From the NCBI GenBank assembly GCA_017506865.1, contig JAFCMP010000035.1, positions 1,302,001 through 1,366,000 on the forward strand: a DNA stretch of 64,000 nucleotides, written 5' to 3'. The DNA comes from Tribonema minus (taxonomy: Eukaryota > Sar > Xanthophyceae > Tribonematales > Tribonemataceae). A model generated the notes under the pieces. It saw only the letters and a list, made by a program, of their open reading frames with translations, had not been told where the DNA came from and did not search any database. Positions 21,632 through 63,416 of this stretch are shown here, piece after piece; positions within the stretch are counted from its first letter, which is position 1, and every line of letters starts with the position of its first letter. The position numbers were made by a program, and so were the translations under genes.

Positions 21632-21880
21632 CGCCAACACAGCTGCGTGACAAAGCTGGCAATGCAATGCCTCTCTCTCTCTTCTCTCTTTTTGTTTTTC
21701 AAGGTAGAACAAAAAAAAAAAACAAAACGTTTCTGGGTGGATTTTGCTGGCGCCACGTTGGTGACTCCCACCCTGTGTGCCTGCTGTTCAGCCAACGCTC
21801 GGCACCCTCCACGAGGGGCAGCCGCCACCGTGTCCCAGGGGCGGGGCAGGGCCCGCCCCATTTCAACTTCAAGTCGTTTC

Positions 21881-24373: not shown

Positions 24374-24406
24374 GCCGCCGGTGCGGCGCTCCCCTCATCC
24401 ACCGTA

Positions 24407-32904: not shown

Positions 32905-32937
32905 TACGATGGATGAGGGGAGCGCCGCACCGGCGGC

Positions 32938-35430: not shown

Positions 35431-35714
35431 GAAACGACTTGAAGTTGAAAGTGGGGCGGGCCCTGCCCCGCCCCTGGGACACGGTGGCGGCTGCCCCTCG
35501 TGGAGGGTGCCGAGCGCTGGCTGAACAGCAGGCACACAGTGGGAGTTGACTTTCAGTTCATGAACGTGGTAGTGTGTACCTTCAGAGAGAGTGACCTCAG
35601 GCCGGCGTTGACCCCAGGTGGGGATGAGAGAATTCGAATGAGCACCAGGCTTTGTCTGGATGACGTGCATGCTCCCACCCACACAACTGCTCAAGCAGGA
35701 GAAGGTGGAGCTGC

Positions 35715-36665
35715 GCCTGGCCACGATGCCGCAGGCTTCTTAGGCAAGCTGCAGTTGTTGGGAGACACCGGCTTAGTCAGAATGCTAGTTACCGCCATGG
35801 TGACCGTTGACTTCATGTGCCGCTTGCCTGTGGGTGTGTGCGCCCAGGTGGTCAATGCAACGCGACGCATTGACCACCTGGGCGCACAGGTGGACCACGG
35901 CTGTTTGTACACAGGCAGGCGCGCGCTGGCAGGGGCAGCTGCACTTCTTGCGCTGGGCGAAGCACCATGGGGCTTGCCACAAAGACCATTGCTGGGGGTG
36001 CGATGTGTGAGCACGGAGCAGCGGGGGGGCACCTCAATGCGCTCAAATGGCTGCGCTCGGACCGTTGTAGGTGACATGGGATGAGGACACGTGTGCAGCT
36101 ACCGGCGGTCACACTGATGTCCTACAGTGGGCCCATGCGAACGGCTGTCCCTGGGATGAATGGACGTGTGAAGGCGCCGACAAGCAAGGAGACACATCTC
36201 CATGTTGCACTGGCTGCCGAAGAAGCAGTGCCCCATGGGATGTGACATAGTGCCATGCTGCGGCACGCCACGGGCACCTCGGGATACTGCAGTACACATA
36301 CCAGCGCGGATGCCGAGGGACTGCTGCCACGTTTAAGAGGGCGGCCACCAGCGGCAAGATATACATTCTCGAGCGGCTGTGCAAAGAGGGCTGCCCATGG
36401 ACCTGGCGCACCTGCATGCGGCCGCCAAGCACGACCACTTGCACGTGCTCCAGTGGGCCCGACAGAACGGCTACCAGTGGTCATCAGACACTTGTGAGGC
36501 GGCCGCTAGTGCAGGACACTTGGAAATCCTCCAGTGCGCGCACGCTAAGGACTGCTTTATGGACCTCTCAACACGTGAGGTGGCAGCACAGAGCCACCAC
36601 CTGAAGGTTCCCCAGTCGGCGCGCAACAACGGCTGCCCCTGGGAGGCACTGCAGACAAGTTGCTG
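35715..36665 (+). pseudogene. Ankyrin-like repeat gene fragment, left arm of a second inverted repeat
   Basis: Plus-strand frames contain ankyrin-type units such as HLHVLQWARQNGYQW, TCEAAASAGHLEILQ and VAAQSHHLKVPQ, the AAxxGHLExLxWAxxNGCPW style common in algal and protist ankyrin proteins. Frames break repeatedly. The block is repeated in inverted orientation at 36666-37610. Confidence 0.65.
35837..35888. repeat. Perfect 22-bp hairpin with 8-nt loop
   Basis: tgtgcgcccaggtggtcaat plus gc, loop aacgcgac, then the exact reverse complement. It lies in the left ankyrin arm and is absent from the right arm. Confidence 0.9.
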
Positions 36666-41368: not shown

Positions 41369-43416
41369 AAGCTAGCTGGAGCGGAGGGACGTATTCATTG
41401 CTGACGTTGTCGTCGTTAGCGCCCATGAGTCATGGAGGATGAACGACGTCACAAGGTAATTGACATAGAAGCACCGGCATCAATCCAATCTTGGGTGCAC
41501 TGTTGTATTCAGAGATGCTCCGTAATACATATTGTTAGTAGAGCCGCTCCAGGATTGTAAACGGCATCACATCAAGGTACTTTGTTGTAAGGAAGCCTAC
41601 CTAGAAACACACAAGGTTTAACTTCGGGGGCGGTGCGGCTGACGTCAAGTGCTTTGTGTTGAACTTTCATTCCCAGTGAAAACAAACTGCCAAATCCTCG
41701 CATGACGAAGGCTCAACTAGCATCCCTCATGATAACAAACTTTTTCTCTCTGACGCGCGTAAAGGATCAACAGTTACACAGCATTGCACGGCGTAATCAT
41801 GATGAACAGGCTCCATTACTTGCATCAGGCAGTACGCAAGAGGACGTGTAAGGCATTTGAATTCAACTTGAAGTTTGCCATCATTTGCCGTTATTCAAAA
41901 GTGGAGCAGTTGCTGATTTTCCAGTTACACTGATGTCATGTGGTGTCACTGCGTTTTGCACAGCACCGGCCACCTGGCTGGCTGCTGAGGAGTTGCTTTG
42001 GAGATTCTCAAGGCAGCAGAGCAGCAGCAGCAGCGCGTATACTCTGACTCTGCACTTCAACGCAAATGATATTTGTAAGCGCGTTGAGGCCTTGAAATGA
42101 GACTCGCCTGAGAGCGGCAAGCAGTAGGCATCAATGCCGCACCACACTAGGTATTACAGCATCAGTTTTTCTCCGAGTTAGTTGGACTCTGCCTTACACT
42201 GCTCTGCAGCAGAAATCAGCTGGCCTATACCGCCGATGATGGTACAGTTGTGGTCTTCTCCTTTGGCGCTCCACCAGAATACATGCGACCTGAACGGTGT
42301 GCATGTACGAGAAATTTGGAAGCTTCACCAGAATACATGCGACCTGAACGGTGTGCATGTACGAGAAATTTGGAAGCTTCAGATTCTCACCTCTTCGCAT
42401 ATACTTTTAAAAGACGACAATCTGATCTATCAGTGATGATAACCCTATAGCATAGTATACCTTTACTTAAAAGCACTACATATGTAGCTGAAACCCTTCT
42501 GCGCACTCTAGCGCTTCGTCGTTGTTCAGCTTATTGTATACTTCGAAGTATTGTTTATGCCTCATTCGCCGTCAAGCGTGCTGCTGTTCTTGACACAGAG
42601 GACGCTGAAGCTAGGAGATGATGATCCACGCGTGTTCCGCCAAGCATCTACTCTACGTGCTTGCTATGACGCCGCCATGTTTCAGCATACTTCAAGTTGT
42701 ATCAAACTTGTCACTCCGACGTGTGGAACACCCTGCACAGATAGCCTGTTTGCTGCCCAGCGTTACACTGCAGCCTATGTAGTACATCCGACTGTCATCA
42801 GCCGTTTTTCATTGCTGGCAATTTGGCCATTCGCCAACCCCGTCTCTGTCAATGCTGTAATACCAGACATTGGTGCTGCGCATGCCTCTTGCCGCAGGAT
42901 CCCTGCAAGCGCAGCGGTTACTCAACATCGCGCCCTACATTGTCATCTGCAGCCATGGACGCACGTGCCACAGCTCCTGGAGACTACCATAGCAGGCTGC
43001 CTGCAACGTACCCTACCAGCGGCTACTGCATCTCCACGCCGATGAGCTGCCAGAAAACCAGAAGTCACGCACGTGCCTATGACGCTGTCAAATGGCCAAC
43101 AGATCAGCCTCTAGGGCTTGCCTTATATGCGCTGGTGCCGCAGTTTACTGGTCAAGCGGCAGGCACTCAGACAGCGTGGGAGCTGACTGCTCAGCGTCGG
43201 CAGAAGCAACGTGGGTGCGTCGGCTGCTGAGCTGAGGGCGGCGAGAGACACGCGGCGCGCCAGCGCTGCTGCTCCAGGCTATTTAAGTTGTATGCAGAGC
43301 GGGTTGGTTGAGGAACGTCAACATCAACTGCGGTATTGGGCGTGAGCGGCGCAGCGGATCATGGCGCTGTCGAGCGTGCGGGGGGGGGACCAGGTCACGC
43401 GCTGTAGACTCTGGGA
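41369..43416 (+). repeat. Repeat R, copy 1, left part
   Basis: Begins aagctagctgg and aligns with 59798-61766 at roughly 85-90% by eye. It is interrupted at its right end by the inverted LTR junction segment of the gypsy-like element. No intact ORF is shared by the two copies, so R looks non-coding or decayed. Confidence 0.85.
42272..42379. repeat. 54-bp tandem duplication in R copy 1 only
   Basis: Two perfect units starting caccagaatacatgcgacct. R copy 2 has a single unit near 60705-60757, so the duplication arose after the copies separated. Confidence 0.9.
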
Positions 43417-43630: not shown

Positions 43631-43917
43631 CTAACCACTTGCATGGAGAAAAGGCCACACACCTGGTGTATCTGTGATGGCTCAGCTCCAATGAGTCCTT
43701 GCTGTCCAGCAGCTGGCTAGCAAGAGTGTAGACCCAAGCAAGCCACTGAGATGCTGCCCCAGATTGTTCTGTGCAAGTAGTTTCTGGAACAGTCCAAGCA
43801 AATTCCTAGGAACGGTCCTCAGGTGAACTGGCCTGAAGCACACTTGTACAGTACAGTCAAAGGTGTACACAGCACTTGAACTGCACTGTGACATGGACTT
43901 TGTATCATCCCTCTTCT
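43631..43917 (-). repeat. 3' LTR, uninverted part
   Basis: Matches 56537-56812 with about three substitutions. In element sense it starts TGATACA. The remaining LTR end lies inverted at 43418-43501. Confidence 0.88.
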
Positions 43918-43930
43918 TTGAAAGGACCGC
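43918..43930 (-). promoter_or_regulatory. Polypurine tract
   Basis: In element sense AAAGAAGAGGGA directly abuts the LTR start TGATACA, as expected for the plus-strand DNA primer. Confidence 0.8.
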
Positions 43931-44371: not shown

Positions 44372-46516
44372 CTACGTCAAATACGTGCTCCCGCGCTCAC
44401 GGTTCGATGAGATGTGCCTTAGCAGTTTGCCACGGCTCCAGCCCGTGGGGAACCTGTAGCGCAGTACTTGCCCGACGTACAGTGGCCCAAAGTTAGTGGG
44501 AACGTGGGGGCACATCGTGACTCGCACGCCTGGGGGCGGGTCAGCTGTAACATCTGCAGCATGTTCAGCAGGGTCAGGCTTGCCTTGTTCGCGCGCCAGC
44601 CTGCGTAGCCTGTCTCGCACACCTTCTGCTAGCATCTTCCCTGAGCGTACCTGTGCCGATGTTAGGTCCTCCCAAATTCCATCCGTGTAACGCACTCGCC
44701 ACTTAGATCGCACGAAGTCGCGCACTTGGCCCCAAATGTACTCAGTGGTCTTGGGATCGGCACCTGAAATTTGCCTTACCACCTGAGTGCCACAAGGGTA
44801 GCGCTTCAACGCTTCGTCTTTGGGTAGTGAGCGGTCCTCACGTGGGCTAGGGCGTTCTGCGTACGACGGCATGTGACCTTCGTGTTGGATCTCATAGAGG
44901 GCATGAAAAGTGTCTAGCACCCAGGGCGGCACTATGAAACTCTCTGCAAACTCCTTCTCATGAATCCACTCAGACGAGGTACCGTCGCGTGCCAGCCATT
45001 TGTATGACCAGCTACCGTACTCATTAGCCCTGCGGTCTAGGATTCTCTGTAACCGCTGATCAAGGTCCAGTTCTTTCAGCTGCTCTGGGTCTACGGCGGC
45101 GTGTACTCCGTCGCCGACCAGTCTAGCAGGCCTAGGGTGATACGGCTTCATGTTTTCCACGTGTGCATCAGTGAGCCGCACACGCGTGCCATTGAGTTGA
45201 CATTGAAATGACAGCCCTGAGTCACCGTAGGGTGCTATCAGCCTCCAGGGTCCGGTGAAGCGCTCCTCCAGGCCACTCGCGCGTCCTTCAGAGGGTGGCT
45301 TTTTGACCCATACATAGTCGCCTACACTTACATGCAGGGTGCGTTGAATCTTGTCGTTACGAGCTCGGATGCGCTCAGCCCTGGAGCTTAACGCCTCGCC
45401 TATGACAGACTCTGCCAGCTTCAGATTCTCTTGTAACCGCTTCACCTCTATGTGCAGATCTGCCGTGCACTCTGGCTTAGAGATGAGGGCATCTAGGGGG
45501 AATCTGGCCTTGCGACCAAAGACACAGAAGAAAGGCGTAAGGCCTGTCTCTTCCCTGGGAGTGTTCCTCAGTGCAAACTGTACGATGTCAACTTGGTCGT
45601 GCCAATGGTTCTGGTAGTGCGAGCACACTCTGGCCAGGGCCCTCTTGACACGGCCGTTCAAGTTCTCAGCGACACTGTTAGACTGCGGGTGGTATGCGCT
45701 GATTTCTACCTTCTGAACAGCAAAGGCCCGGCAAAGGCTAGTCACCAACGCACTCACAAATTCCTTGGCTCCGTCCGAGCACAACTCCTCCACCAGTGTG
45801 CCACATTCAAGCAGCACCTTCGCAAGCAGGGGAGCTACCTCAGCAGCGGATCTTGTTTTAGTGGGGAAAATCCAGCAATAGCCAGACCTGGCTTCCACTA
45901 TCACGAGTAGGTAGCGGTGCCCCTCAAGAGATATGACTCCTGGCTCAGCGAAGTCTATGTGAAGACGCTGCCACATGCGCTGAGGGGGCATGAGCACTTG
46001 CTTGTACTGAGCTGTCGTCTGAGGTTTGGTCTGTTGGCACGCTATGCAACTGCGCACGTAGTCGCGAATGTCAGCTCCCATGCCGCGCCAGTAGAAGTTC
46101 TCAAACACCTTGGCGTGCGTGGCGGCGGTCGATGGGTGCTGAGCGCTGCCATCGTCGTGACACATGCGTAGCACCAGAAGCTTCAGCGCCTCAGGGGTGA
46201 CCCACTGTGTGATCAGGGCTCCCCTCTTGGGGTGACTGGCTGCAAAGTGCACCAACAGGCCATCAGGCTCTAGCGTGAAGAATTCTTGGTTCTGGGGTAT
46301 GAACTTTGCCAACTTGGCATCAGAAGGTTCATTGCGGTCCTCTAGGTAATTCTTCACAGCCATGCAGAAGGAGTCACGCCCTTGCCATTGCACAAATTTA
46401 TCGCGCTCAAGCACTGCGGGCTGACCTGAGTTTCCTCCTGCAAGGTCCCCGGGGTGTTCTGAGGTTGCTGGCGCGGGGGGTTGAACAGGGCTATCAACTG
46501 ACATCATGTCTACTTG
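44372..46516 (-). CDS. Gypsy-like integrase with chromodomain-like and Tudor-like C terminus
   Basis: The open frame continues upstream into the tail of the nested LINE, so its own start is lost; element sequence begins near residue 55 of that frame. The zinc-binding part has two His in the stretch after MCHDD and CIAC. The catalytic core shows D in HIDFAEPG, D in CSDGAKEF and E in SNSVAENLNGR, the last two separated by exactly 35 residues (DD35E). A further segment (YGSWSYKWLARDGTSSEW) resembles a chromodomain. A final segment (SKWRVRYTDGIWEDLTSAQV) resembles a Tudor-like fold found at the end of some algal and protist integrases. The role is insertion of element DNA; chromodomains in this class steer integration toward marked chromatin. 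Confidence 0.88.
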   Translation of the reverse strand, partial: QVDMMSVDSPVQPPAPATSEHPGDLAGGNSGQPAVLERDKFVQWQGRDSFCMAVKNYLEDRNEPSDAKLAKFIPQNQEFFTLEPDGLLVHFAASHPKRGALITQWVTPEALKLLVLRMCHDDGSAQHPSTAATHAKVFENFYWRGMGADIRDYVRSCIACQQTKPQTTAQYKQVLMPPQRMWQRLHIDFAEPGVISLEGHRYLLVIVEARSGYCWIFPTKTRSAAEVAPLLAKVLLECGTLVEELCSDGAKEFVSALVTSLCRAFAVQKVEISAYHPQSNSVAENLNGRVKRALARVCSHYQNHWHDQVDIVQFALRNTPREETGLTPFFCVFGRKARFPLDALISKPECTADLHIEVKRLQENLKLAESVIGEALSSRAERIRARNDKIQRTLHVSVGDYVWVKKPPSEGRASGLEERFTGPWRLIAPYGDSGLSFQCQLNGTRVRLTDAHVENMKPYHPRPARLVGDGVHAAVDPEQLKELDLDQRLQRILDRRANEYGSWSYKWLARDGTSSEWIHEKEFAESFIVPPWVLDTFHALYEIQHEGHMPSYAERPSPREDRSLPKDEALKRYPCGTQVVRQISGADPKTTEYIWGQVRDFVRSKWRVRYTDGIWEDLTSAQVRSGKMLAEGVRDRLRRLAREQGKPDPAEHAADVTADPPPGVRVTMCPHVPTNFGPLYVGQVLRYRFPTGWSRGKLLRHISSNRERGSTYLT

Positions 46517-46522
46517 AAGTTG

Positions 46523-48296
46523 TATATTATGTCCTGGACCGCATGGGTTGAGCGCACGATAAATCGGGCAATAACTAAATTTACGGAGGGGCCGGCGGTT
46601 CGGCGCTGGCCGGCGAGGGCCGCGGCACTTGCAACAGTGCGATGCGGCGGTAAGCGCTGACGTCGCCATCAGGGGCAATGACTGCGTTCCAGTTGTCGAT
46701 CACGACACGTGTGAGCGCGCGCTGTAGCGCGAGGGAGGTGCGGCGGCACCAGAAGGCAACGCGCTGCGCGAGATTGTAGCTGCCCTGCGAGCTCTGCTTG
46801 GCGAGTGCGTGTAGCAGCGCTTGGGTGTCACGTGACATAGCGCCGAAGTGGTCAAAGGCTGCGGAAAATAGGGTGTGTGTAGTGGGGTCCAGGGCCCCTG
46901 AGACTACGTATGTGTCTATCTTTTCCTGCGAAGCCGATTCAAGCACGCGCTGCACATCGCGCGCGCCCCCCTGAGCCTGACGGAGGCGGGAGGGACATGA
47001 GCTGTCACGTATGGTGACGTCTATGCAACAAGCTACTTCAAAGCCGCCGCGCAGTTTAGTGCACCGGCCTGCCGCTACCGCGTCGGCGCTCGGCTGCACT
47101 TTAGGGACTGAAAGGCAAACCTGGTTGCTGCCGAAGACGATGTCCATGAACTTGTTGCACCCGTGGCGCGCCGCGTAGCGGCGGAAGGGGGCAAGGGTGT
47201 CCTGGTCGAGACCGCGGAGGTGGGCCACCTGCTTGAGCAGCTGAAAGAGCGCATCTGCGAGCAAGTTGTGTCGCGTGACGTTAAGCCCTTGTGTGCAGCG
47301 GCGCAGGTGGACACCTGAGTCCACTGGCTTATGGCACTTGGGGCACCGTGCCTCAGCGGGGGCGGGGCGCTCCACGCCCAGGTGGCGCCGCAGCGTCTCG
47401 CGGAATTCTGGCGGCGACATGGTCTCCGCTGGGTCAGTGCTCGGCAGTTGCGCCAAGAAACCCATGGCCCCCTTAGAGGCGCCGCTGCGCCACGCCGCGA
47501 CTGCTTCCAACGCATCTGCTGCTTCAAGCCGGCGCAGCTGCGTGGCGGCGAGCGCTGCGTCTAGCACCCGTGATAGCGCGGCTTGACGCCGCGGCAGCAC
47601 GGCGGCCGGCGGGGCCTGGGCAGAGCCTGGCTTGCGCGCCGCCGCTGGCGCAGCGCGGCGCGCGCCGGCGCGAGTCCGCATGCCCAGCCCCGCAGCTCCG
47701 CCTGCCCGTTGCAGCAGATCGCGCAATGCGCCGTCGTCCTGGCGCCAGTCCTGGTACCAGACCGAGGGCAGGAGCAGTGCGAGGGCCGCTGCGGCATCAT
47801 CGCTGCCGCTGCGCAGCTGCTGCAGGCAGGTAGCTATCTGAGTGAAGGTGAAGCCGTAGCGGGCGTGCTCCAGGACGCGGCTGCGTGCCGCCACTGGAAA
47901 CGCCGCCAGTGCCGGTCCCATGCACTCGAGGGTACGTGCAGCAAATGCGGCACATGCACACAGCGCCGCGCCCAGCACGCCAAAGCCACCGCTCCCCAGC
48001 CGCAGATGCACACGTACCTGCTGATGTGCTAGTAGCGTCACCGGGGCCTCGCCACCCCAGTCGGCGCCGCGTACCCATGCCACTGCCGCCGCCCACAGAG
48101 AGGGCGGTGCCGCCGCCGCCGCAACCGCCGGCGGGCCGCGGCAATTGTCACCAGCCGCCGGCGCGCCCTCGTGGGCCGGTGGCGTAACGCCCGCCGATGG
48201 CTCCTGCGCCAGCGCAGCCACGGCCGCTAGCGTGATGGCGTCGAAGCGCCGTAGCTCCTCGTGCGTAAGGGATGGCGCCGTGTTGCGCGCGACATG
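46523..48296 (-). mobile_element. 5'-truncated copy C of the same non-LTR retrotransposon, nested in the gypsy-like element
   Basis: Contains only the last part of ORF2 (thumb, CCHC, RLE-like region) and the 3' tail, in the same orientation as the host element. Flanked by the 6-bp duplication AAGTTG (46517-46522 and 48297-48302). Small in-frame deletions distinguish it from copies A and B. 5' truncation is typical of target-primed reverse transcription. Confidence 0.92.
46581..48296 (-). pseudogene. LINE ORF2 C-terminal fragment, copy C
   Basis: Open in frame with the preceding gypsy RNase H sequence, giving a chimeric frame 46581-49019. It retains the zinc knuckle (CPKCHKPVDSGVHLRRC) and the CCIDVTIRDS segment but lacks the reverse transcriptase core, so it cannot function alone. 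Confidence 0.9.
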
Positions 48297-48302
48297 AAGT
48301 TG

Positions 48303-49058
48303 AGGTTCCTGCTCGCTGCTGCTTTCACAGTTCTCGCTTTCGGTACGCTCACCCGTTTGCTGTGCCAAGAGTGATGCGCAGCTATCCCACACGCCATCTG
48401 GGTGCACTCCGGTGCGCAGATTGCAAAGCATTGACGCCAGCGCCAGCTCCTGCAGCTCCGGCTCCGGCTGCTCCGGCTGCTCACCTCCCTCTTCTTTGAA
48501 AAGCACAGTGTCCTCACCGCTGCTTTCAAGTGAGGTGTCAAACAAAGCATCTTGCACTTGTGCAGGGTTAAGTTTGAGCATGGCCTCGCTCAGGTCTGCG
48601 GATACCTGAGCGACTTTGTCAAAGCGCATGCCAGGGCCATCTGGGTATGAGGCATAAGCTCCAATCCTGCCGATATTCGCGGGGGAATCCACGACTTCTT
48701 CGCTCTCAAAGCGTACCCCAGTAGGCGGAGCAGGTCCTGCATCCGTACAGTCTGGCCACTGCTCATCAGCGTGGTCATACTCTCTGGGGCCCAGGATCTC
48801 CGTCATTTGAGGCATTCGTGAGGGGCAGTCTGCATTACCATTGTCCTTACCAGGGCGGTGTACGACCATGATGTCATATTCCTGGAGGCGCATGGCCCAG
48901 TGCAGGAGTTTGCTATTATGGTTATTCAGTTTTAGCAACCAGCGCAGTGCCGATGCATCTATAATGACGGTCACTGGCCTACCCCACACGTATGAGCGGA
49001 AGTTGTTCAGGGCCAGCACTACAGCAAGGCATTCCAGCGCGGTGGCACCTAGCTTTGC
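48303..49058 (-). pseudogene. Gypsy-like RNase H C-terminal half and linker
   Basis: Shows VTVIIDASALRWLLKLNNH and the terminal KDNGNADCPSRM, matching the end of Ty3/gypsy RNase H, followed by an acidic linker. A TAA at 49062 separates it from the RT/RNase H frame upstream. The LINE insertion then splits it from integrase; the frame before and after the insertion is the same, so the ancestral polyprotein was continuous here. Confidence 0.85.
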
Positions 49059-49061
49059 GTC

Positions 49062-49815
49062 TTACACTGAATTGACTTTGCTGTAAAATGCTGCAACTAC
49101 CTCTCTGGCTGGCTTGCTATCCACCGTCTTGGCAGGGCGAGTGTGAGCCCATGGAAAATCTTCGTGCCGCTCTCGAAGCTTCTCAAGTGGCACAAACTGG
49201 GATAGCACTCCAGCGACTGCCAACTTGCTAGCATCTGTGTGTACTATGAATGGCAAGTCAAAATCTGGGTGCATGATAACGGGTGCGCTCGACATCGCGC
49301 GTTTGAGCTCTGCGAGTGCATCTCGACGGCGTTTATTCCATGTCATGTCAGCACCGTCCCTGGTACACTCCATCAATGGCGCCGCGATGGACGCAAATCG
49401 GTGAATGTAGCGCCTGTAGTAATTGAAACATCCCATCAAGACTTGCATGAGACGTTTGTCAACCTTGCCATCCTTACCGAGCGGGGGCATCATGTCCACC
49501 ATGGCCTTGACCTTGTCCTCACATGGCCTAATGCCGTACTGGCCGACTTTGTGACCTAGGTATGTCACTTCCTCGGCAAAGAGTTGACACTTGTGCCTTG
49601 ACACACTCATGCCATACTCCTCCACGCGACGCAGCACATCGTCCAAGTGAGCTATGTGATCTTCAAGCCCTTTGCTGTGAACCAGCACATCATCCACATA
49701 CACGCACGCATGGGTCTGTCTGGCAGCGCCTAACAGCTCGTGCATGCAGCGCGTGAAAATGCTGGGCAGACATACCAGTCCAAACGGCGCGACCTTGTAC
49801 TCCCATAGGGAGCCA
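49062..49815 (-). pseudogene. Gypsy-like reverse transcriptase C-terminal half and RNase H start
   Basis: Contains the catalytic YVDDVLVHSKG, GHKVG, the connection FNYYRRYIHRFASIAAPL and the RNase H start VHTDASKLAVAGVLSQF. It is shifted by one base relative to the N-terminal half, the break lying near 49820 just after MTKG. Confidence 0.88.
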
Positions 49816-50619
49816 TCAGGGAGCCGTCTTGCAAGAGGACCCTTTGGTCATGGGAATTTGCCTATAGCCTGAGGCAAAGTCCAGAGCTGAGAAAAATCTT
49901 GAACTTGCCACCTTTTGAATCAAGTCCTCCATGTTGCCTAAGCCGTATTCGTCACGTCTTGTGACCTTATTAAGCGGTCTGTAGGCAACACAGAAGCGTA
50001 TCTTGCCCTTTTGAGCCACCAGCACAGGGTTGCTGGCCCATGGCCCACTAGCAGGTCTAATTTGCCCACGCTTCCCTTCGTCCTGAATTGCTTGAAAAAT
50101 GATTTTGGCCTCGCGCTCGGCCCAACGCCGCGCCTTGTCGGCTATTGGGGCCGCGTCTCCGGTATCAATGTCCACGTCAAAGCGATCCGTGACCCTAGGG
50201 TTCTTGGGGTCTTTTGCAAAGGCAGCACGTCTACGGCGTAGCACTTCCATGACCCGGTCGTAGTACTTAACGCCGTCTTTGTCGCGCTCTTCTAAAATAG
50301 GTATCACCTTACCATCCCGCTTCAGCACTTCTGCCAGCTCCTCGTCCGTGCAGAGCTCTAAGGTGGCATTGTGCTCTCCAGCTACCTTACGCCTGTGAGC
50401 GGCGCGTTCCGCCTCAGCCTGTGTGGTTGCTGTGGGATCTGAGCTAGGTTTCACCTGATTGACGGTTGGGGGGTTGCTAGAAAGTCGGCTGAGCGCTATG
50501 CGCGTGAGGTTAGCCGTGAGCGTCTCTTGGTCAACGTCTAGACCGCACACCATCTCCGGTGCCTCAACAGCGCCTAGTATTGCTCCCTTACGAATGAGCA
50601 CTGGCATTGTGGAAGTGTT
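49816..50619 (-). pseudogene. Gypsy-like reverse transcriptase N-terminal half
   Basis: Shows GPWASNPVLVAQKGKIRFCV, YRPLNKVTRRDEYGL and the motif-A region FSALDFASGYRQI with its catalytic Asp. It is in the same frame as the protease ORF, separated from it only by TAA at 50620-50622. Confidence 0.87.
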
Positions 50620-53600
50620 TTAAGCCATTAGCCTGAGTGGTTTGTTCGGCATGGCAGTATCTACGGAGTCCAGCAACACAACGCCTTGCTCGGCCAACTT
50701 GTTCACGGCCGTCACCGCTTCTGGGACGTCTAGGGTTAGCAGCACCTCTATAGGACCTGTGCACTGCAGTGGCGGGTGAGACACCACTTCTAGCATGTGC
50801 GCGGTGTCAGCGTCAATGACCTGGTTTGAGGCTGCTCTGAGACGATATTTGCGTTCTGGCAGTACAGGCTTGTCCTTGGTCTGTACCCTTGCTGAGCCTA
50901 TTTTGATGGAGTTTGCTTCAGGGGGCTCCAAGGCTCCAATGCGCGCACGTTCACGCATGGGCACAGCGGGGCCTGACGAGCCAGCGGGATAGAATTTCAT
51001 CCCGTGCTCGTAGGAGATCACAGAACCGTGCTTGCCAAAGAAGTTTGACCCTAAGATTGCCTGGTAAGGCAGGTCCACGACGTAGAAGCGGTGCGTCAGC
51101 AGGTGGTCTTTGAAGCGCACTTGAGCGTGCACCACCCCTTCTACAGGTACCGACTTCTTGGCGTCAGCGAGCTCCACCGTAGTGAAGTCCCCATCAGCTA
51201 GGGGGCAGATGGTGCCCGGCGGCAGCTTGTGCGCTGAATCTTTATTGATGAACTCAGCCTCTGCGCCACAATCCACCAAAGTATCCAGGCCAAACTCTTG
51301 CACGGCATCGCCCACCTGTGTGCGCATGGTCATGTGCACAAAGCCATTCGTGCGTGGCCTCCCTACCGGGGTTACTCTGTGGAGTGGCATGGGCGCTTTG
51401 CCGCTTGCCGCCCACCTGGGTTTCAACTCAAGCAGTGTTATGTGAGTCTGCAGTGGTGCTGCTGAGTCAGAGTCAGGGTCAGCGCTCTCTTCTACCATTG
51501 GCGTCTTGGGTGTTGCAGTCGACTGAGGCACTGCTGGCTCAACGGTTACTCTTGGTGAGTCAGAATCAGAGTCAGACTCGTCGTCGCCGCATTGCCACTG
51601 TACTTCATTTAACTGCACTGGCTCACCTTGGCGCAGCGAAGCAAGAAACGCTCTCCCTTTCTCCCAACACCAGTTTGCAGCACTCCCTAGCGCGCTTGAG
51701 CAGGTCCCGGCGACCCTCAGTAATGCTGGCTGCGATGCGTCCACGACCCACTCCGGCGGCGGCGCTGTGTGATCATGCACTGTTACTTCTCCGGGAGTCA
51801 CGTCAGGGCCGGCGGGGGCAGGTCTCTCCCAGCAATTGGGCAGAGAGGCAACAGCGTGAACACACTGCATCAGGGCGCTTACAGCCGCAGGCTGTACTAG
51901 GTCAGCGGCCCACTTGCGTCTCTGGGTGAGTGTGCCTTCAGTGTAGGGCTCATGGTAGCCCAGGCACTCCATCACCTGCTCAGGCGAGAGTATCAATGCG
52001 TCCTTTGCGGGACCGGCATCCTTGGCTCTCGGTACGTACCTTGTGGGGCCCTTGCCAGGTTGGCGAGTCACAGGGCTAGGCAGTGGCATGTCAGTAGAAA
52101 GCACGCCAGCACGGTGCGGTTGACGAGGATCCCAATAAAAGGTGTCCTCCATGCAACCAGTGCAATCGCGCACAGTCTTTGGGGTACTGCTGCGAAAGCG
52201 CTCATTCAACAGGGCATTCAGGCGGGCAAAACGTGCAGGGGTGGCCTGGGTGTTGCACGCAGACACAGTATAGATGCGCTCGCGCGAACTTCCGCCATCA
52301 ACATCAGTGCCACGAAATTGCACCTCAAAGGTCGAATACCCCGCCTGACGCATGTGGCCGTCGGCGCAGCCCCATGCCCCGGACAACAGCATTCGAGGCA
52401 CATTTTCATGAAAGACCAATTTTGGCCGTACATTTACAGCAAGCTGTGCAACGGAGGGCAACACGCTGGCCGCTTCGCCTTCAACGCCCTTGCCCGAGGG
52501 CGAGAAGTCAACACATGGGGCAGTGACCCAGAATGCATCGGGTTCCAGCTGCTTGAGGCGCTTGAGCACTGCCGGACTAGCGATGTCTGCACATAGAACT
52601 TCTGTGCCAGGGAACTGGTGCTTGTACGCCTCGCATGTGTATTCGGCCCTATCTACAGCAAGGACCACATCAACCTTGACACCTGTGTGTCTGGCAAAGT
52701 CCTCTAACCCCCTATGTACACCCCCCACCCCGCAACAAAGCTCTGCCACTCGCAGTGGTCTGGCCGCCTCGTCGGGTTCTCCGCCGTGAGCGCACGCATC
52801 CCCCTTCCTAGTCTGCAAGTGCACGAAAGTGTCACGGGGGGTGGCGCACAGATCGGAAGCAAGGTCAGCGAGATCGGCATTCCCACTTACCGCTGTAGAC
52901 GCCGCGCACGGCACGCTGCGTTTGCGCTTTGCGTCAGCTCTGGCGTCGGTGTCATGGTCATTGCACCTAGCCACGCAACAGGCGCACATGATAGCTGCTA
53001 GCACGCGAGTACCGACCTCACGCCTTAGCAAATGGTTACGTGTGCCAGTGACTTCGCAGGCTGCGGGATCAGCCTCTGGGTTCACCTGGGGAGTTGCATC
53101 ACAGGCCACTATGCTGGCCTCTGAGGATGCGCATGCAACTTGAACTTGAAGTTTGTGGAAGTGAGCATCGGGACCCGCCTTGGATTGCACACGCGCAGGC
53201 TCACGCTCAAGCATGCCACTCATGAAGTTTGCAGAAGACTTAGTGTCATAGGACTCACTTTTCTGCTGCTTGTTGCCCCTCAGCTTCTCCAGCCTGGCCT
53301 GAAGCTGATCATGCGGCTTCCCTTCCTTCTTGAGTTTCTCCAGCCGCATCTTGAGCCAGGGCACGCAGACGCTCTTGTGGGCCGTCAGCTCTCCGCGCGC
53401 CACCTCCTTGCTACACCCCCAGCACGCCATTTTCACGGAAGGGTCGAGCTCCTTCTTGGGAGTGCCCTTCGGCTTAGCGGCAGCTGGCGTGCTCTTGGTC
53501 GGGGTCGGGGTAATGGCGGCGAGGCTAGACGGCGTCTCGTCGTCGCTGAGGTCCATGTCGCCGTCGTCCGTGCGTAGGTTGTGAGCTCGCGCCCGCTTGC

Positions 53601-53735
53601 CGGCGGTGGCGCCGAACTCGACTGCTGCTGCCGTGGCTGAGTGAAGGCTCTTGATCGCGGTCAGGTTGGCGCAGAACGTCTCCTTCTGCGTGGCGTTGAG
53701 GGACGCGTACAGGTCTTGGGTGCGGTACTGACCAA
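50620..53735 (-). CDS. Gag zinc motif - C5-cytosine DNA methyltransferase - aspartic protease polyprotein segment
   Basis: An open frame of 1059 codons begins at 53799 inside the mitochondrial insert, which supplies about the first 24 residues; the element part follows. A C2HC motif (CWGCSKEVARGELTAHKSVC) lies at residues 126-145, with Lys-rich helices after it. Residues 348-656 are a DNA methyltransferase: motif I VAELCCGVGGVHRGLE, motif III VLCADI, motif IV APCVDFS with catalytic Cys429, motif VI HENVPRM, motif VIII SSRERIYTV and a motif IX-like ILSPEQVMECLGY. An acidic linker leads to a retropepsin-like protease (LVDCGAEAEFI; AILGSNFF; about 820-935), where Cys replaces the usual Ser/Thr after the catalytic Asp. 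TAA at 50620 precedes RT in the same frame. Confidence 0.9.
51832..52758 (-). other. C5-cytosine DNA methyltransferase domain
   Basis: All core motifs are present in order (I, II AVDRAEYTCEAYKHQFPG, III, IV, VI, VIII, IX), with about 90 residues between VIII and IX for target recognition. Two departures: motif IV reads PCV, not PCQ, and the motif X Gly-Asn is replaced (AADLVQP). It would transfer methyl from S-adenosylmethionine to cytosine C5. The catalytic Cys, Glu-Asn-Val and Arg-x-Arg are kept. Confidence 0.9.
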
Positions 53736-54074
53736 ACAAGAAACATACCAGTAACAACAAGAAAGTATATTGAAAAAATGGGAGTATGAATAATACCAAT
53801 TATAATGGGCGTTGCAGGATCTTAAAAACCTAATTGCCATGGTATTGGTGCATCAAAAAAAGATGCTAATAAAAAGGGGCGTAGTCTTTATACTTTTTTA
53901 AATCGAAAATGGTTTTTCGACAAAGTTGATAATGATTTTGTTTCTCAGTTCTTATTAAATTTATCATATAATACTACGTATAAAGTGGTAGATCGTGGTA
54001 TAATTGAAATCCCACGCAAATCGAACGCATCTGGTGCAATGAATGCAACGGGTTATAACGGTTTTGATAATAGG
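53733..54074. other. Nuclear mitochondrial DNA insert (cox2 and nad5 fragments) in gag
   Basis: An AT-rich block unlike its GC-rich surroundings. On the minus strand 53733-53863 encodes the COX2 N-terminal signature DAPIPWQLGF, a stop, then DPATPIIIGII and a hydrophobic segment; the stop at 53822-53824 (TAA) stands where the family has Gln (CAA). On the plus strand 53870-54030 encodes the NAD5 C-terminal signature LYTFLNRKWFFDKVDND, then [13 protein letters not shown]. The two fragments are joined 5' end to 5' end. The exact right border is uncertain because the last 60 bp match neither gene clearly. Confidence 0.87.
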
Positions 54075-55318
54075 GCCAAGCCCATGCGGTTCCAGTCCTC
54101 GCGCATCAGCTGCATCTGGTGGAAGAGCTGCTTGAGAGGCTGCGCCATCGCCGCGAAGTAGTATGACTTGAGCAGGCTGGCGTCAGCGGAGGACATGTTC
54201 GAGGTGCGCTGCAACGCCTTGAGAAGCTTGGTGGCGAACTCGCGGGGGGTCTGTTGCGGCTCCCAGGGCATGTTTGCGAGCTCCATCATCGCGTCTGCGC
54301 GGCCGCTGGGGTTGTCGTAAAGCTCCTGCATGGCGTCCCATATCGCGTTGTAGGACATCTCCCCGCAGGTGTGTACCTTCTCCTCTCCAGTGACGGGGTC
54401 CTTGCGCACGTTGATGATCGAGTCCTGCTGCTCCGCCGTCAGGCACTTGCGCAGCGCGTAGACCCAATGGCGCGTCGGCACGCGGTTGTACTCGGCAGCT
54501 TGTTCAAACTGCCGGCGAGAGGTCGTGGTGGCGCCGACGTCCAGGGTGATTGGGATCGCCGTAGGGCTGAAGTAGCGCTGCCAGCTAGTGTCTTCGCGCT
54601 GAGCGTCGGGGGGCGCGCTGCTGCTCGTGGCGGGTGACGTGCCAACGGTGGCGCTGAGCAGGGGGGGCGCGTTGCCGCTCGCGACGCCGTAGGGGCCGCT
54701 GGCGCGCGCTCCCATGCCGAACGGGGTAGTGGTCTGTGGGGGCGCGAAGGGAAGGCCCGCGCCGGCGAGGCCGACACCGGGGTCCTCTCGAAGGTCGCGC
54801 GCGTCCCACTGCGCCGCGTCGGCCAGCAGGCGCGGGGCAGTCTCCTGTACGAACTGGTGCAGCGCCGGGGGCCCGGCGCGCTTGGCCTCCAGCAGGTACT
54901 CCTTGATGCGCGTGTAGCGGTGCAGGCGCTCGACGAATAGGTGGTGGTTACGCGAGAGGATCGCCTGCTGCCGTCGCACGACCTCCAGGCGGTGAGCGTA
55001 CTCAGCCTCCTGCCCCTGCAGCAGCGAGAGCTGCAGCTGCGAGGGGTTCGCCACAGGGCTGGGGCGGCTGTTACGACGGTCGCGCTCGACGGCGGCGGCG
55101 CGCTGCTCGGTGTCCTTGAGCTCGCGCTCGGCTACGTGGCAGCTCTCGAGGGTGGTGTTGATGCGTTGATTCAGCGCGCGCTCAAGCTCCTGGACCGTCG
55201 CTTCCAGCTCTGCCGCGGTGGGCACCGCAGTGAGGGAAGGAGGCAGAGTCGTGCGCGTGGCGAAAGGGTCTGGTGCGTGGTAGAAGGGCGCGAAGCCTGG
55301 CGTGAAGGAGGGGTGCGC
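54075..55318 (-). pseudogene. Gag capsid-region protein
   Basis: An open minus frame from the break near 55318 into the mitochondrial insert. A coiled-coil-rich N-terminal part (LEATVQELERALNQRINTTL) is followed by a Gag-like helical region with RRQFEQAAEYNRVPTRHWVY and TPREFATKLLKAL, as in the retrotransposon Gag family. Gag would assemble the virus-like particle. The mitochondrial insert cuts it from its C-terminal zinc part at 53.4 kb. Confidence 0.8.
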
Positions 55319-55783
55319 TTATGAGGCCGGCGGACGAGTGCCGGGGAATGAGACGGGGGACGTCATCTCGGCCGCCTCCTTGACGGCGCATCCCGCGAGC
55401 TGAGCCAGGGCGCCCTCTGGCATCAGCGGCAGGGCGCGTCGCAGCCCTTGCAGTATCTCGTTGAAGTCGGGTTGAGGAGCGGAGGTCGTAGGCGGGACGC
55501 CAAGACCCGCGCCGGAGGGGTCCGTGGAAGCGGGGAGCGACACCGGTGCAGCTCCGGTTGCGGGGGCGGTGGTGGTCGCCGTCACCGCGACAGTCGAGGG
55601 GGCGGCGCTCGACGTCGCTGATGAGGTAAGACCGGCCGACGACGTGAAGAGTTGCGTCGCCGGCTGCTGCTCGGGGGGCACGAGCGCTTGCTGCTGCACA
55701 CCGCCACCGTTGCCTTCGCCTCCCGGGGCCGTTCCAGCCTCCCCGGAGCTGTCCGTCGCCGATCTTGATACGCTATCCGCCAT
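55319..55783 (-). pseudogene. Gag N-terminal segment
   Basis: Starts at ATG 55783 (MADSVSRSATDSSG), the first good start after the leader. Low-complexity Gly/Ala/Ser/Thr composition. It ends at TAA 55319 one frame away from the following capsid region, so a one-base indel separates them. Confidence 0.7.
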
Positions 55784-56434
55784 GATTTTCCTAAGTACTC
55801 CCGTTACGCTTGTTGCAGGTCGCTCTGCATGGCACAGCAATGACAACATGTCCCGTGCATGCGTACGTCAGGCAGGCTCTCGCCCCTCGGATACAGCATG
55901 TTTGACATGATTGCCAAGACACTTTGCCCATGATTAAATCCAGCTGTCAACACCCCCCTCTTTGCAGAAGACGCTGAATCTTCAGTGGGTGTATTGCTGG
56001 GCCTGCATCGGCTATGTAAAATGCCTAGCAGTCATAGCTGGGTAGCAAAGACGTTCCCGGCGTCGTTCAGGCCTGTACGCAGCAGTGTGATCAGTACTAC
56101 TGCGTGCCTTCCTTGTCATGAGGACTACCGCTGTAGCACCCGTTCGACAGTGTCCAGCCGTAAGCGGGTTGAGCGCTCATGCGATGTTGCTACGAGCATG
56201 CATGTCGCGGCTCCAGGTGCAACGTTCTGGGCTCGGCCCTTGATCGCCGCGTTGCATGCCATACAGATCTGAGTTATTCCGTTGCAAACACTGTGCCGCT
56301 ACTCGTCGGGCTAAGCGCAGTAGCAAGCCTGGCATGGTAGTGTGCAACTCATCAATGCAACTTCTCTGGGAGGACGTCACATTGGGTATACGGCGCGCTA
56401 AAAGTGATTCCGCGCTACACTGGTGTTATCCCGA
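55784..56434. other. Untranslated leader of the gypsy-like element
   Basis: About 650 nt between the primer site and the gag ATG. No ORF or repeat is recognised. Confidence 0.55.
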
Positions 56435-56452
56435 GAGTTGGAGCTGAGCCAT
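56435..56452 (-). promoter_or_regulatory. Putative primer binding site
   Basis: In element sense TGGCTCAGCTCCAACTC directly follows the LTR end. The leading TGG complements the CCA end of a tRNA; the tRNA identity is not determined. Confidence 0.6.
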
Positions 56453-56812
56453 GATCCAAAGGGAAAGGCCTCTGGGTTGCTCCATGAGCAGGCCAAGCCC
56501 TTCTGGGAAACAGGAGCTCACTCTCAGGATGTAGGCTAACCACTTGCATGGAGAAAAGGCCACACACCTGGTGTATCTGTGATGGCTCAGCTCCATTGAG
56601 TCCCTGCTGTCCAGCAGCTGGCTAGCAAGAGTGTAGACCCAAGCAAGCCACTGAGATGCTGCCCCAGATTGTTCTGTGCAAGTAGTTTCTGGAACAGTCC
56701 AAGCAAATTCCTAGGAACGGTCCTCAGGTGAACTGGCCTGAAGCACACTTGTACAGTACAGTCAAAGGTGTACACAGCACTTGAACTGCACTGTGACATG
56801 GACTATGTATCA
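56453..56812 (-). repeat. 5' LTR (360 bp)
   Basis: On the plus strand it starts TGATCCAAAG and ends TATCA (TG..CA ends). It is followed by CGTG (56813-56816), the same four bases that border the inserted end, and by R sequence. Confidence 0.9.
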
Positions 56813-58343
56813 CGTGCAAGACTCACGTCGGTGCAGTGCTGTCGTGTGTATGTGGATGCGTGCGCGTGCACAACTGCGAGCATGTGGTTGTGCAGAGTAC
56901 CTAGGTGTGAGTCAAACGCACTTGCTACCTGCACTGACAGGCATTGTTGCTACTTGTACTACTGTTCACAATGGATCCTGCTTTGTGCTGAGTTTCTCCC
57001 GGCCTCCCCAATGTAAGCATGACATACAGATGGACCCACTTGAGGGGCGGTTTCAGCTTCTTAATTCCCCTTCTTCCTGTCAGTGATCTTTCTGCACATG
57101 CATATCCATAGAAACATGTGTGTTGATCAGCACCTGCACACGCGACTGTACACCATCCAATGTTTGCCTGCAGCAAAGCCAGTACATGTGTTCAACAAAT
57201 CTAACTGCACACGTGCCGTCACTGGATCTACTGTACATGCATTGAAGCGACCACCAAACACCCACATTGAAACATGGGGTGACCACATTCATGCCCATTG
57301 TTGGTGCGACATTGTTTGACAAACGCGCCAGCTCCTGTTACATTTGCACTTGACAGCAAGGAACGCTGGCGGCCACAGGGGGCAGGTGCAACACAGGTGT
57401 CTGAAACATTAGAGACACCTGATGTAGAGAAGATGCCTATGTAGGCTCAAAGTGCGGCCAGAGGTCACGGTGTGTGCTACTTGATAGCTCTCCAAGTCAC
57501 ATACGTCTGACTCAGCGTCTCACTTGTTGAGAACTTATCTTACCGTAAGCACCGCACTGGAGATGGTTGCAAGTATGCCACTACTAGCAGCTACTTGATG
57601 CCATCCTGCTCGCTGCAACCTTTCTGGTCGAGCAAGCTGCTACTTGCCCATGAGGCACTGCTCAACCGATGCTTGCAAGCATGCGATTATGCTGCTGACT
57701 GCATTTTGTCGAGCACGCATGTAACCATACAGAACAAGCTGATCATGCAGTGGTAGTGATATCACTCGAGTCTCCTTTACTCAAACTAGCATACAGTACA
57801 CAGTTGGAGGGTGGACCACGCCACAATGCTGTACATATCCACCTTACGCACAGCGGCAGGAGCATACAACAACCTGCAGGCACGTTTCATACATGTGACG
57901 GTGGCGCACTCACGCAATAGCGTCTGACAATTGCTGCAGCATTGCTGTCAAGCAATCCAGACGCAGTTCCACGAAATGCATGCTGGGACCTGAGCACACT
58001 GCGCTGGTTAGACAACACACCATAGACATCAGCACAGCACTTTCCACTGTTCAACAAATATTCTTGTAATTAATACTGCCCACTCAGAAAATATGCTTCT
58101 GTCGCCTCCCACTCTGCACATGCACACCGCCAGCTGTTCTGCCTGAAAATGCCTTAATGCCCTCAGAAATGCGCATGTACGTACCAGGGAAGCGCCCACT
58201 GATGCTGCTTTTCCTGGGAAGCTTCAGAGGCGCCAACACACCACTGTCTCGGCGCGAGACAGAGCACTGATGCGACGCTTAAACTGCTTATGCCCGCCTT
58301 CTTTACACACTCCTCGGGCCAGTCTAAAGCCCTTGTGCTAGCG
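56813..58343 (+). repeat. Repeat R, copy 1, right part
   Basis: Continues R beyond the gypsy insertion and aligns with 61888-63416. It is about 93% alike up to about 57110, then nearly identical to the end at gtgctagcg. Confidence 0.9.
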
Positions 58344-59797: not shown

Positions 59798-62700
59798 AAG
59801 CTAGCTGGAGCTGAGGCTGCTGGAAGGACGTATTTATTGCTGGCGTTGTCGTCGTTAGCGCCCATGAGTCATGGAGGATGAACGATGTCACAAGATAATT
59901 GACACAACAACTTCTGCAATTGTAAGTTTTGCAAACAGTGTAAGGGTACATCATTGAAACTCAATGGTGCACCTGACGGTAGTCTAGTGCCGCTGCCAGG
60001 GTTGCAAATGGCATCACATGAAGGTGGTTTGTTGTGATGAAGCCTGCCTAGAAAATGTGTTTCAAGCTGAGGTTCAACATGTGGCGGTACAGCCGACTTC
60101 AAGTGCTTTGTGTTGAAGTTTCACTCCCAGTAAAACAAACCGCCAAATCCTCGCATGATGGAGGCTCAACTAGCATTTTGCATGCGAGACGTTTTCTCTG
60201 ACGCGCGAAAAGGACAGACAGTTACACCACAGTGACATCATGAACAGGCTCTACTACCTGCATCAGGCCAGTACGCAAGAGGACGTGCAAGTTATTTGAA
60301 GTTAACTTGAAGTTTGCCATCATTTGCCGTCGTTCAGATGTAGAGCAGTTGCTGATTTCCCAGTTGCACTGATGTCATGTGATGTCACTACATCATGAAC
60401 AGCACTGGCTGCCTGCCTGGCTGCTGAGGAGTTGCTTCGGAGTGAGTCTCCCAAGGCAGCAGAGCAGCAGCAGCAGCAGCACGTATACTCTGACTCTGCG
60501 CTTCGACGCAAAGAATGTTTTCAAGCGCGTTGAGGCTTTGAACTGAGAGCGGCAGGCAGTAGGCATCAATGCCGCACCACACTTTGACAGGATCAGTTTT
60601 TCTCCGAATTTGTTGGACTCTGCCTGACTCTGCTCTGCAGCAGAAATCAGCTGGCCTATACCGCCAATGATGGCACAGTAGTGGTCTTCTGCTCTGGCGC
60701 TCCACCAGAATACATGCGACCTGAACAGTGTGCATATATGATAATTTTGGAAGCTTCAGACTCTCATCTCTTCGCATATACTTAAGGCTTCACGCTGATC
60801 ATCTCAGTGATAACCCTATATACATATACCTTCAGTTGAAAGCAGCATGTAGCCGAAGCCTTTGCGCGCACTCTAGCGCTTCGTCGTGGTCAAGCTTATT
60901 GTATATTGTTTGTGCCTCAGTCGCCGTCAAACGTGCTGCTGTTCTTAACAGGGGATGCTGATGCTGGGAGATGATGATGCATGCGTTTTCCGCCAAGCAC
61001 CTACTCTACGTGCTTGCTATGACACCGCCATGTTTCAATATACTTGTATCAAACTTGTCACTCGCACATGTGGAACACCCTGCACGGATCGCCTGTTTGC
61101 TGCTCAGCGTTACACTGCAACTTATTCATCTGGCCATCATCAGCCGCTTTTAATTGCTGGCAATGTTGGCCATGCACCAACCCCGTCTCTGTCAATGCTG
61201 TAATACCAGACATTGGTGCTGCGCATACCTCTTGCTGCAGGACCCCTGACCGCGTGCAAGCGTAATCGTTACTCAACATCACGCCCTACATTGTCATCTG
61301 CAGCCATGGACGCACGTGCCACAGCTCCTGGAGACTACCATAGCAGGCCGCCCGCATCGTCCCCTACCAGCGGCTGCCGCAGTTCGGCGCCGATGAGCTG
61401 CTAAAAACCAGAAGTCACGAACGCGCCTATGACGCTGTTAAATGGCCAACAGATCAGCCTCTAAGGCTTGCCTTATATGCGCTGGTGCCGCAGTTTACTG
61501 GTCAAGCGGCAGGCACTCAGACAGCATCGGAGCTGACTGCTCAGCGTCGGCAGAAGCAACGTGGGTGCGTTGGCTGCTGAGCAGAGTGCGGCAAGAGACG
61601 CGCGGCGCGCCAGTGCTGCTGCTCCAGGCTATTTAAGTTGTATGCAGAGTGGGTTGGTTGAGGAACGTCAACATCAACTGCGGTGTTGGGCGTGAGCGGC
61701 GCAGCGGATCATTGCGCTGTAGAGCGTGCGGGGGGAGGACCAGGTCACGCGCTGTAGGCTCTGGGAACGTAGGTATGAATGCAAACACGGGGCCGTGCAT
61801 GTTGAGCTGTGACGTGCCGTCCTTATGTTGCTGCAGTGGTGAACATCGCGACTGCAAGAAGACGGCGCGTGGCACGCACTGACGGCGCGTGCAAGACTCA
61901 TGTCGGTGCAGTGCTGTCGTGTGTATGGGGATGCGTGCGCGTGCACAGCTGTGAGCATGTGGTTGTGCAGAGTACCTAGGTGTGAGTCAAGCGCACTTGC
62001 TACCTGCACTGGCAGGCATTGTTGCCACTTGTACTACATACTGTAGTAGATCCCGCTTCGTTGAGTTTCTCCCGGCCTCCCCAATGTAAGCATGACATAC
62101 AGATAGACCCACTTGAGGGGCGGTCTCAGCTTCTTGATTCCCCTTCTTCCTGTCAGTGATCTTTCTTGACATGCATATCAATATAAACATGTGTGTTGAT
62201 CAGCACCTGCACACGCGACTGTACACCACCCAATGTTTGCCTGCAGCAAAGCCAGTACATGTGTTCAACAAATCTAACTGCACACGTGCCGTCACTGGAT
62301 CTACTGTACATGCATTGAAGCGACCACCAAACACCCACATTGAAACATGGGGTGACCACATTCATGCCCATTGTTGGTGCGACATTGTTTGACAAACGCG
62401 CCAGCTCCTGTTACATTTGCACTTGACAGCAAGGAACGCTGGCGGCCACAGGGGGCAGGTGCAACACAGGTGTCTGAAACATTAGAGACACCTGATGTAG
62501 AGAAGATGCCTATGTAGGCTCAAAGTGCGGCCAGAGGTCACGGTGTGTGCTACTTGATAGCTCTCCAAGTCACATACGTCTGACTCAGCGTCTCACTTGT
62601 TGAGAACTTATCTTACCGTAAGCACCGCACTGGAGATGGTTGCAAGTATGCCACTACTAGCAGCTACTTGATGCCATCCTGCTCGCTGCAACCTTTCTGG

Positions 62701-63416
62701 TCGAGCAAGCTGCTACTTGCCCATGAGGCACTGCTCAACCGATGCTTGCAAGCATGCGATTATGCTGCTGACTGCATTTTGTCGAGCACGCATGTAACCA
62801 TACAGAACAAGCTGATCATGCAGTGGTAGTGATATCACTCGAGTCTCCTTTACTCAAACTAGCATACAGTACACAGTTGGAGGGTGGACCACGCCACAAT
62901 GCTGTACATATCCACCTTACGCACAGCGGCAGGAGCATACAACAACCTGCAGGCACGTTTCATACATGTGACGGTGGCGCACTCACGCAATAGCGTCTGA
63001 CAATTGCTGCAGCATTGCTGTCAAGCAATCGACACGCAGTTCCACGAAATGCATACTGGGACCTGAGCACACTGCGCTGGTTAGACAACACACCATAGAC
63101 ATCAGCACAGCACTTTCCACTGTTCAACAAATATTCTTGTAATTAATACTGCCCACTCAGAAAATGTGCTTCTGCCGCCTCCCTCTCTGCACATGCACAC
63201 CGCCAGCTGTTCTGCCTGAAACTGCCTTAATGCCCTCAGAAATGCGCATGTACGTACCAGGGAAGCGCCCACTGATGCTGCTTTTCCTGGGAAGCTTCAG
63301 AGGCGCCAACACACCACTGTCTGGGCGCGAGACGGAGCACTGATGCGACGCTTAAACTGCTTATGCCCGCCTTCTTCACACACTCCTCGGGCCAGTCTAA
63401 AGCCCTTGTGCTAGCG
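59798..63416 (+). repeat. Repeat R, copy 2 (uninterrupted, empty site)
   Basis: A 3.6 kb unit bounded by GCTAGC at both ends. The bases at 61888-61891 (cgtg) are the intact equivalent of the gypsy insertion point in copy 1. No common ORF is kept between the copies. It may be a non-autonomous element or a segmental duplication. Confidence 0.88.

Follow-up and report, generated by a model that had tools for sequence, protein, structure and literature searches.

A stretch of 64,000 nucleotides (nt) of the Tribonema minus genome (assembly GCA_017506865.1, contig JAFCMP010000035.1, positions 1,302,001 to 1,366,000; here called the window) contains one long terminal repeat (LTR) retrotransposon, which spans 56812 to 43631 on the minus strand and carries a C5-cytosine methyltransferase (MTase) domain within its coding frame. 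Judged from its sequence, this is a Ty3/Gypsy-type LTR retrotransposon of T. minus, with a polyprotein in which a C5 MTase lies between a Gag-like zinc motif and a weakly matched protease. The Gypsy-type assignment made in a preliminary description of the locus held, as LTRs, reverse transcriptase (RT), RNase H and integrase were all found, and stretches resembling a primer-binding site (PBS) and a polypurine tract (PPT) adjoin the LTRs.

The element in the window and its methyltransferase domain

The MTase lies in the frame 50620-53799(-), which is open over 1059 amino acids (aa). The preliminary description had placed the Gag zinc motif, the MTase and a protease together in this frame; the zinc motif and the MTase are there, and the protease match is weak, with an E value of 0.05 that falls under the cut-off. 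In a hidden Markov model (HMM) search, PF00145 matched residues 350-535 of the frame with 62.4 bits (E 6e-17; curated cut-off 22), and comparison within the genome itself gave residues 348-656 as the whole domain. The predicted structure of the domain has a mean confidence (pLDDT) of 90.1, and the catalytic Cys (APCVDFSPSG), ENV and RxR motifs are in place, as the original identification of a C5 MTase would have it. The same three features are kept in 30/30 loci of subfamilies A and B (L009-L038, with L009 being the window copy), the Pro preceding the catalytic Cys being replaced by Ser in 12 of them. It is almost certain, then, that the transposon carries a member of the C5 MTase family here.

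Table 1. Features of the retrotransposon in the window, in the order of its minus-strand reading.
Feature	Position	Strand	Basis or remark
5' LTR	56452..56812	-	361 nt; 96.4% in alignment with the C4 LTR, positions 1-362
PBS-like stretch TGGCTCAGCTCCAACTC	56435..56451	-	putative PBS, directly 3' of the 5' LTR
N-terminal Gag-like frame (MADSVSRS...)	55319..55867	-	almost identical to the beginning of T. minus JKP88DRAFT_354395
Gag-like frame	54053..55318	-	continuation of the Gag-like frame after an in-frame stop
Zinc motif C-x2-C-x11-H-x3-C, CWGCSKEVARGELTAHKSVC	53365..53424	-	residue 126 of frame 50620-53799
C5-cytosine MTase domain	51832..52758	-	PF00145 match; genome self-comparison; predicted model
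Aspartyl-protease-like region, residues 839-922	51034..51285	-	PF13975/PF13650, E 0.05-0.06, under cut-off
Reverse transcriptase, in two frames	49545..50010	-	RVT_1, E 0.006 and 2.7e-23
RNase H, interrupted by a stop	48876..49340	-	RT_RNaseH_2, 8.9e-14; RT_RNaseH, 4.1e-13
Nested insertion, ~1.8 kb, between RNase H and integrase	46523..48290	-	missing in L039; gap between tblastn segments
Integrase zinc domain and core	45686..46195	-	PF17921, 1.4e-18; PF00665, 1.5e-7 (32.0 bits, cut-off 32.6)
PPT-like stretch AAAGAAGAGGGA	43908..43919	-	directly 5' of the 3' LTR
3' LTR, shortened	43631..43907	-	first 277/362 positions; other copies extend beyond

The boundary of the 5' LTR was taken from paired LTRs, the LTR of the C4 copy being 362 nt long and of the form TG...CA. 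Pfam searches gave no match for the N-terminal Gag-like frame and none above the cut-off for the Gag-like frame that follows it. The window copy is broken by stops, frame changes and the nested insertion, so that its coding frame is not intact, and its two LTRs differ at 3 positions over 277 nt. The element sits inside the left copy of a two-copy repeat (41383-43416, 56813-58343, 59822-61766 and 61888-63416), the right copy of which (59822-63416) is uninterrupted by it. No target-site duplication was seen for the window copy, whose 3' end is rearranged; the flank just left of 43631, as read from the letters, resembles an inverted piece of the surrounding repeat, and this may account for both the lost end of the 3' LTR and the missing duplication. 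Elsewhere in the window, two RVT_1 elements lie tail to tail at 21451-28573(+) and 28717-35739(-), each with a long frame before RVT_1 and with the look of long interspersed nuclear elements (LINEs).

The host had at first been taken for a chlorophyte, and this proved wrong, since the start of a T. minus protein that a homology search returned is found exactly in this genome: the first 60 residues of JKP88DRAFT_354395 recur without change in 6 loci, among which L020 lies on contig C156. T. minus is a xanthophyte stramenopile. The gene model in question (P0003) is named EGF-like, begins with pieces of this retroelement and looks like a chimeric prediction.

Copies and related subfamilies

At least 130 matches to the MTase domain occur across the genome, the figure being a minimum because 128 of 386 candidates were scored, and 118 of the 130 contain no internal stop. 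At least 18 of these rows are 97-100% identical over at least 299 of 309 residues, namely the window copy and 17 further copies at 97-99%; the remainder comprise at least 39 rows at 58-67% (fragments included), at least 65 at 33-37% and at least 8 others. The LTR has 42 matches, and in 12 cases, the window included, two LTRs on the same contig enclose an MTase match, so the expectation that other copies would have the MTase in the same place was confirmed. When ten other LTR pairs were compared over 277 nt, nine showed no difference and one a single difference. A 4-bp target duplication flanks six of the seven copies read (detected by script in four, by eye in C4 and C531), the seventh, C442, having none in the flanks read. 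Subfamilies B, C and D likewise show paired LTRs and a short target duplication by eye, in one copy each. The elements of the window's family were active recently. A single accidental capture is ruled out by the 17 near-identical copies, the 12 LTR pairs enclosing the MTase, the target duplications and the conserved domain.

Polyproteins in single frames were read for four subfamilies, A (L039), B (L040), C (L041) and D (L042), all chosen for having the MTase. Each has the zinc motif, MTase, RT, RNase H and integrase in one frame, and so shows the order RT, RNase H, integrase of a Ty3/Gypsy polyprotein that the window copy, being broken, no longer displays. This domain order is preserved, in single frames of ~3000 aa, in subfamilies at 64, 37 and 34% identity. 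A protease following the MTase was matched weakly by Pfam in B (E 0.027) and in D (L042, E 2.2e-4, the best value), both under the cut-off. Its motif was recognized by eye in A (DCGA...ILGSNFF in L039), C and D, with Pfam listing no aspartyl protease for L039 and L041. Near the end of B and C there are weak Tudor-like matches (E 0.06 and 0.002, both under the cut-off).

A second arrangement exists in the same genome. L043 and L048 end in a chromodomain (29.2 and 24.0 bits, the latter below its cut-off of 25.1), and in L048 the protease precedes the MTase (E 0.0023, under the cut-off), as a protease motif read by eye also does in L005, L007 and L008. The Pfam search found no protease in L043, and a protease was looked for and not found in group H. 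In addition, L044-L047 were selected from 150 RNase H matches, at places present in neither MTase list. Three of them match PF00145 (E 1.5e-11, 1.2e-7 and 2.7e-10); L044 has no Pfam match, but it can be aligned with the MTase domain of D (E 4.5e-7) and, along most of its length, with L045 and L046. The presence of the MTase in 4/4 loci picked by RNase H is suggestive and is not a survey; no Gypsy element without an MTase domain turned up, and no systematic search for one was made.

A single origin of all the retroelement MTases was considered as well. In a tree of the MTase domains, three retroelement groups (16 rows) fall on one side of a branch with support 87/80, opposite 21 rows that do not include Dnmt1, 3 and 5. 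A tree of the RT, with rows from this genome's elements and one metagenome protein, recovered these three groups too, with A, B and P0002 nested as in the MTase tree; as there are no more than three groups, agreement at the level between them is uninformative. P0002, P0005 and P0012 are environmental relatives of both MTase groups, and P0002 combines MTase, RT and RNase H in a single protein. When the group-1 profile was run once against viral contigs, it gave 110 pattern matches, none of which was a relative by tblastn, a result that does not exclude a viral source. The genome also has stand-alone C5 methyltransferase frames of 367-390 aa (L001, L002 and L003), the nearest solved structure to L001 being M.HhaI (E 4e-17), and an exon of a host gene resembling Dnmt2 lies at L004 1501-2022(-) (E 1.3e-37 against human Dnmt2).

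What the domain may do

For the window's subfamily, DNA methylation is judged, by a modest degree of confidence, to be the selected function of the domain, and the likeliest role, held with the same reserve, would be methylation of the element's own DNA. The MTase would be made as part of the Gag-Pol polyprotein, would be cut free by the protease or travel inside the particle, and would then methylate element DNA, either complementary DNA (cDNA) or fresh integrations, chiefly at CpG; an LTR poor in CpG would keep the promoter active within a methylated element.

An argument for function comes from comparison of the subfamilies. Between A and B, identity is 62-65% in the MTase domain, 34-39% in Gag and the direct neighbours, and 91% in RT and RNase H; between C and D it is 51% in the MTase domain, 26-33% in Gag and neighbours, and 35% in the protease. 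As synonymous sites are near saturation, the conservation argument rests on the contrast between regions, and by that contrast the MTase domain is conserved while its neighbours diverge. A captured domain carried as a passenger without function would not be expected to be so much better conserved than its surroundings at such divergences, nor to be present in several groups; this explanation is hard to hold for groups A-D and is highly improbable, even though a form that is catalytically dead has multiplied.

That form, together with the structural neighbours of the domain and parts of the CpG record, weighs against self-methylation. In the H44 subfamily, 25 residues including the catalytic Cys are deleted in 7/7 copies read (L044 and L097-L102; G000:C214, C292, C8, C16, C33, C76 and C112), and two copies of a sister subfamily retain them; L044 apart, these come from 8 stretches that were fetched and all read. 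The seven H44 copies are identical across the compared stretch, and the Cys-less form has multiplied, probably recently; catalysis is dispensable for at least one amplified subfamily. Since H44 keeps the rest of the MTase fold in a long open frame, with ENV changed to ENA, the fold might be retained mainly for a non-catalytic job, such as nucleic-acid binding in the particle or at the integration site, with catalysis optional. This is unlikely, as the catalytic residues are intact in all other groups read, and the identity of the seven copies leaves room for a loss that is recent and short-lived, or served by other elements.

The structural neighbours raise the possibility that the domain acts on RNA in the manner of Dnmt2, a tRNA methyltransferase, with the primer tRNA or the packaged genomic RNA as its substrate. 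Among solved structures the window domain has 3 matches, each of them a Dnmt2, and Dnmt2 also comes first in a profile search of the PDB and in the Foldseek ranking. No DNMT3 chain is found among 34 and 31 PDB profile matches, and Dnmt3 is not among the 50 VIA-align entries listed, which is not evidence of its absence. On the other side, VIA-align favours DNA enzymes, and the identity to Dnmt2 is only 15-20% in structural alignments. The CFT motif characterizes Dnmt2, and it occurs in 0/13 proteins scanned. An RNA substrate is considered improbable, to about the same degree as a non-catalytic role.

The CpG record is mixed. The LTR of the window's family has 3 CpG against 24 expected, a level reached by none of 983 window tiles outside the element, and the CpG value climbs to ~1.1 just beyond the LTR. 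The corresponding LTR values are 0.17 in B, 0.42 in C and 0.46 in D, no LTR pair being found in the flanks fetched for subfamily F. Those of C and D sit only near the 5th percentile of tiles, and CpG-poor LTRs may be general in T. minus, because the LTRs compared all come from MTase elements. CpG depletion of the whole element is not seen: the body is not CpG-poor, with values of 0.85-0.91 in A and B against 0.67-0.77 in the local genome, itself an unfavourable point for self-methylation. From L039 to the window copy, C>T changes number 53/1466 at CpG versus 63/4403 at other C, a 2.5-fold excess (p 1e-6). The reverse comparison is weaker (29/1207 versus 50/3474, p 0.04), the CpG excess between A and B is only 1.2-1.4 fold, and the young copies show no clear CpG excess among their few differences. 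The pattern as a whole fits some CpG methylation in the genome, by the element or by the host, and the modest excess could be attributed to a host DNMT5. According to the available parts of one report, T. minus has DNMT5, HELLS and CDCA7 and lacks DNMT1 (PMC10538959).

That host complement, and the many element copies, some of them recent, would also suit an enzyme that alters the DNA of the host in general and thereby silences rival elements or genes for host defence, with effects on the element itself being secondary. A similar effect in dinoflagellates was suggested by de Mendoza 2018, in the portions of that paper seen (PMC5890265). The anatomy of the element gives this idea no preference over self-marking, and it is regarded as very unlikely. 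A fuller version of the self-methylation account, which is tentative and as a whole rather doubtful, would have an old, lineage-wide MTase with which elements methylate the CpG of their own bodies, CpG-stripped LTRs that exempt the promoters, and one subfamily without catalysis that lives off the others.

Related systems and significance

The T. minus element belongs, as far as the accessible text of PMC5890265 allows the comparison, to a known kind, the retrotransposons with captured C5 MTases. Its closest counterpart is KnitGypsy-Dnmt3 of the charophyte Klebsormidium nitens, which is likewise a Gypsy-type LTR element, multi-copy and intronless, with a C5 MTase in the coding frame, key residues kept and purifying selection (PMC5890265). 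By its description in those excerpts, the enzyme of KnitGypsy-Dnmt3 is Dnmt3-related and lies in the Pol polyprotein (PMC5890265), whereas that of T. minus lies between zinc motif and protease, has no DNMT3 chain among the 34 PDB profile matches and comes from a stramenopile host. SymbioLINE-Dnmt and SymbioDIRS-Dnmt3 of Symbiodinium, in the sections consulted, are also multi-copy retrotransposons with C5 MTases, but they are LINE and DIRS elements of dinoflagellates and not LTR Gypsy elements; one of their enzymes is a Dnmt3 and the other belongs to an orphan lineage, and for two DIRS enzymes de novo methylation of CG was observed in yeast (PMC5890265).

Among stramenopiles, Gypsy elements with accessory domains (chromo-, Tudor and NADAR) are described from Ectocarpus, and a Tudor-bearing homologue was reported from T. 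minus; the parts of that source available mention no C5 MTase in them, the MTase reported there being of the N4C/N6A type and in a Sola1 DNA transposon (PMC12477816). Retrotransposons with DNA methylases are mentioned in general terms for stramenopiles, green algae and charophytes in the text available of PMC6338049. With Dnmt2 and the bacterial C5 MTases (M.HhaI) the T. minus domain shares the fold and motifs I, IV, VI and VIII; it differs from them in being embedded in Gag-Pol, in its 11-20% identity in structural alignments and in having no CFT. No report of this T. minus element was found in the open-licence literature, most subscription papers lying outside it. Within the literature searched, what is new is the host lineage, the enzyme class as tested, the position of the MTase after the zinc motif and before the protease, the second domain order and the Cys-less variant.

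With the T. minus element, the few algal groups in which retrotransposons carry a C5 MTase, namely the dinoflagellates and a charophyte, are joined by a third and unrelated one, through a host related to the brown algae, of which Ectocarpus has negligible 5-methylcytosine (5mC) according to the passages seen of PMC12477816. As forms with and without the catalytic Cys, and two domain orders, occur in one genome, the question of why a transposon should methylate DNA becomes testable by comparison within that genome. Should the fuller and more doubtful account prove true, the element would be a self-marking, self-limiting parasite with a methylation-proof promoter.
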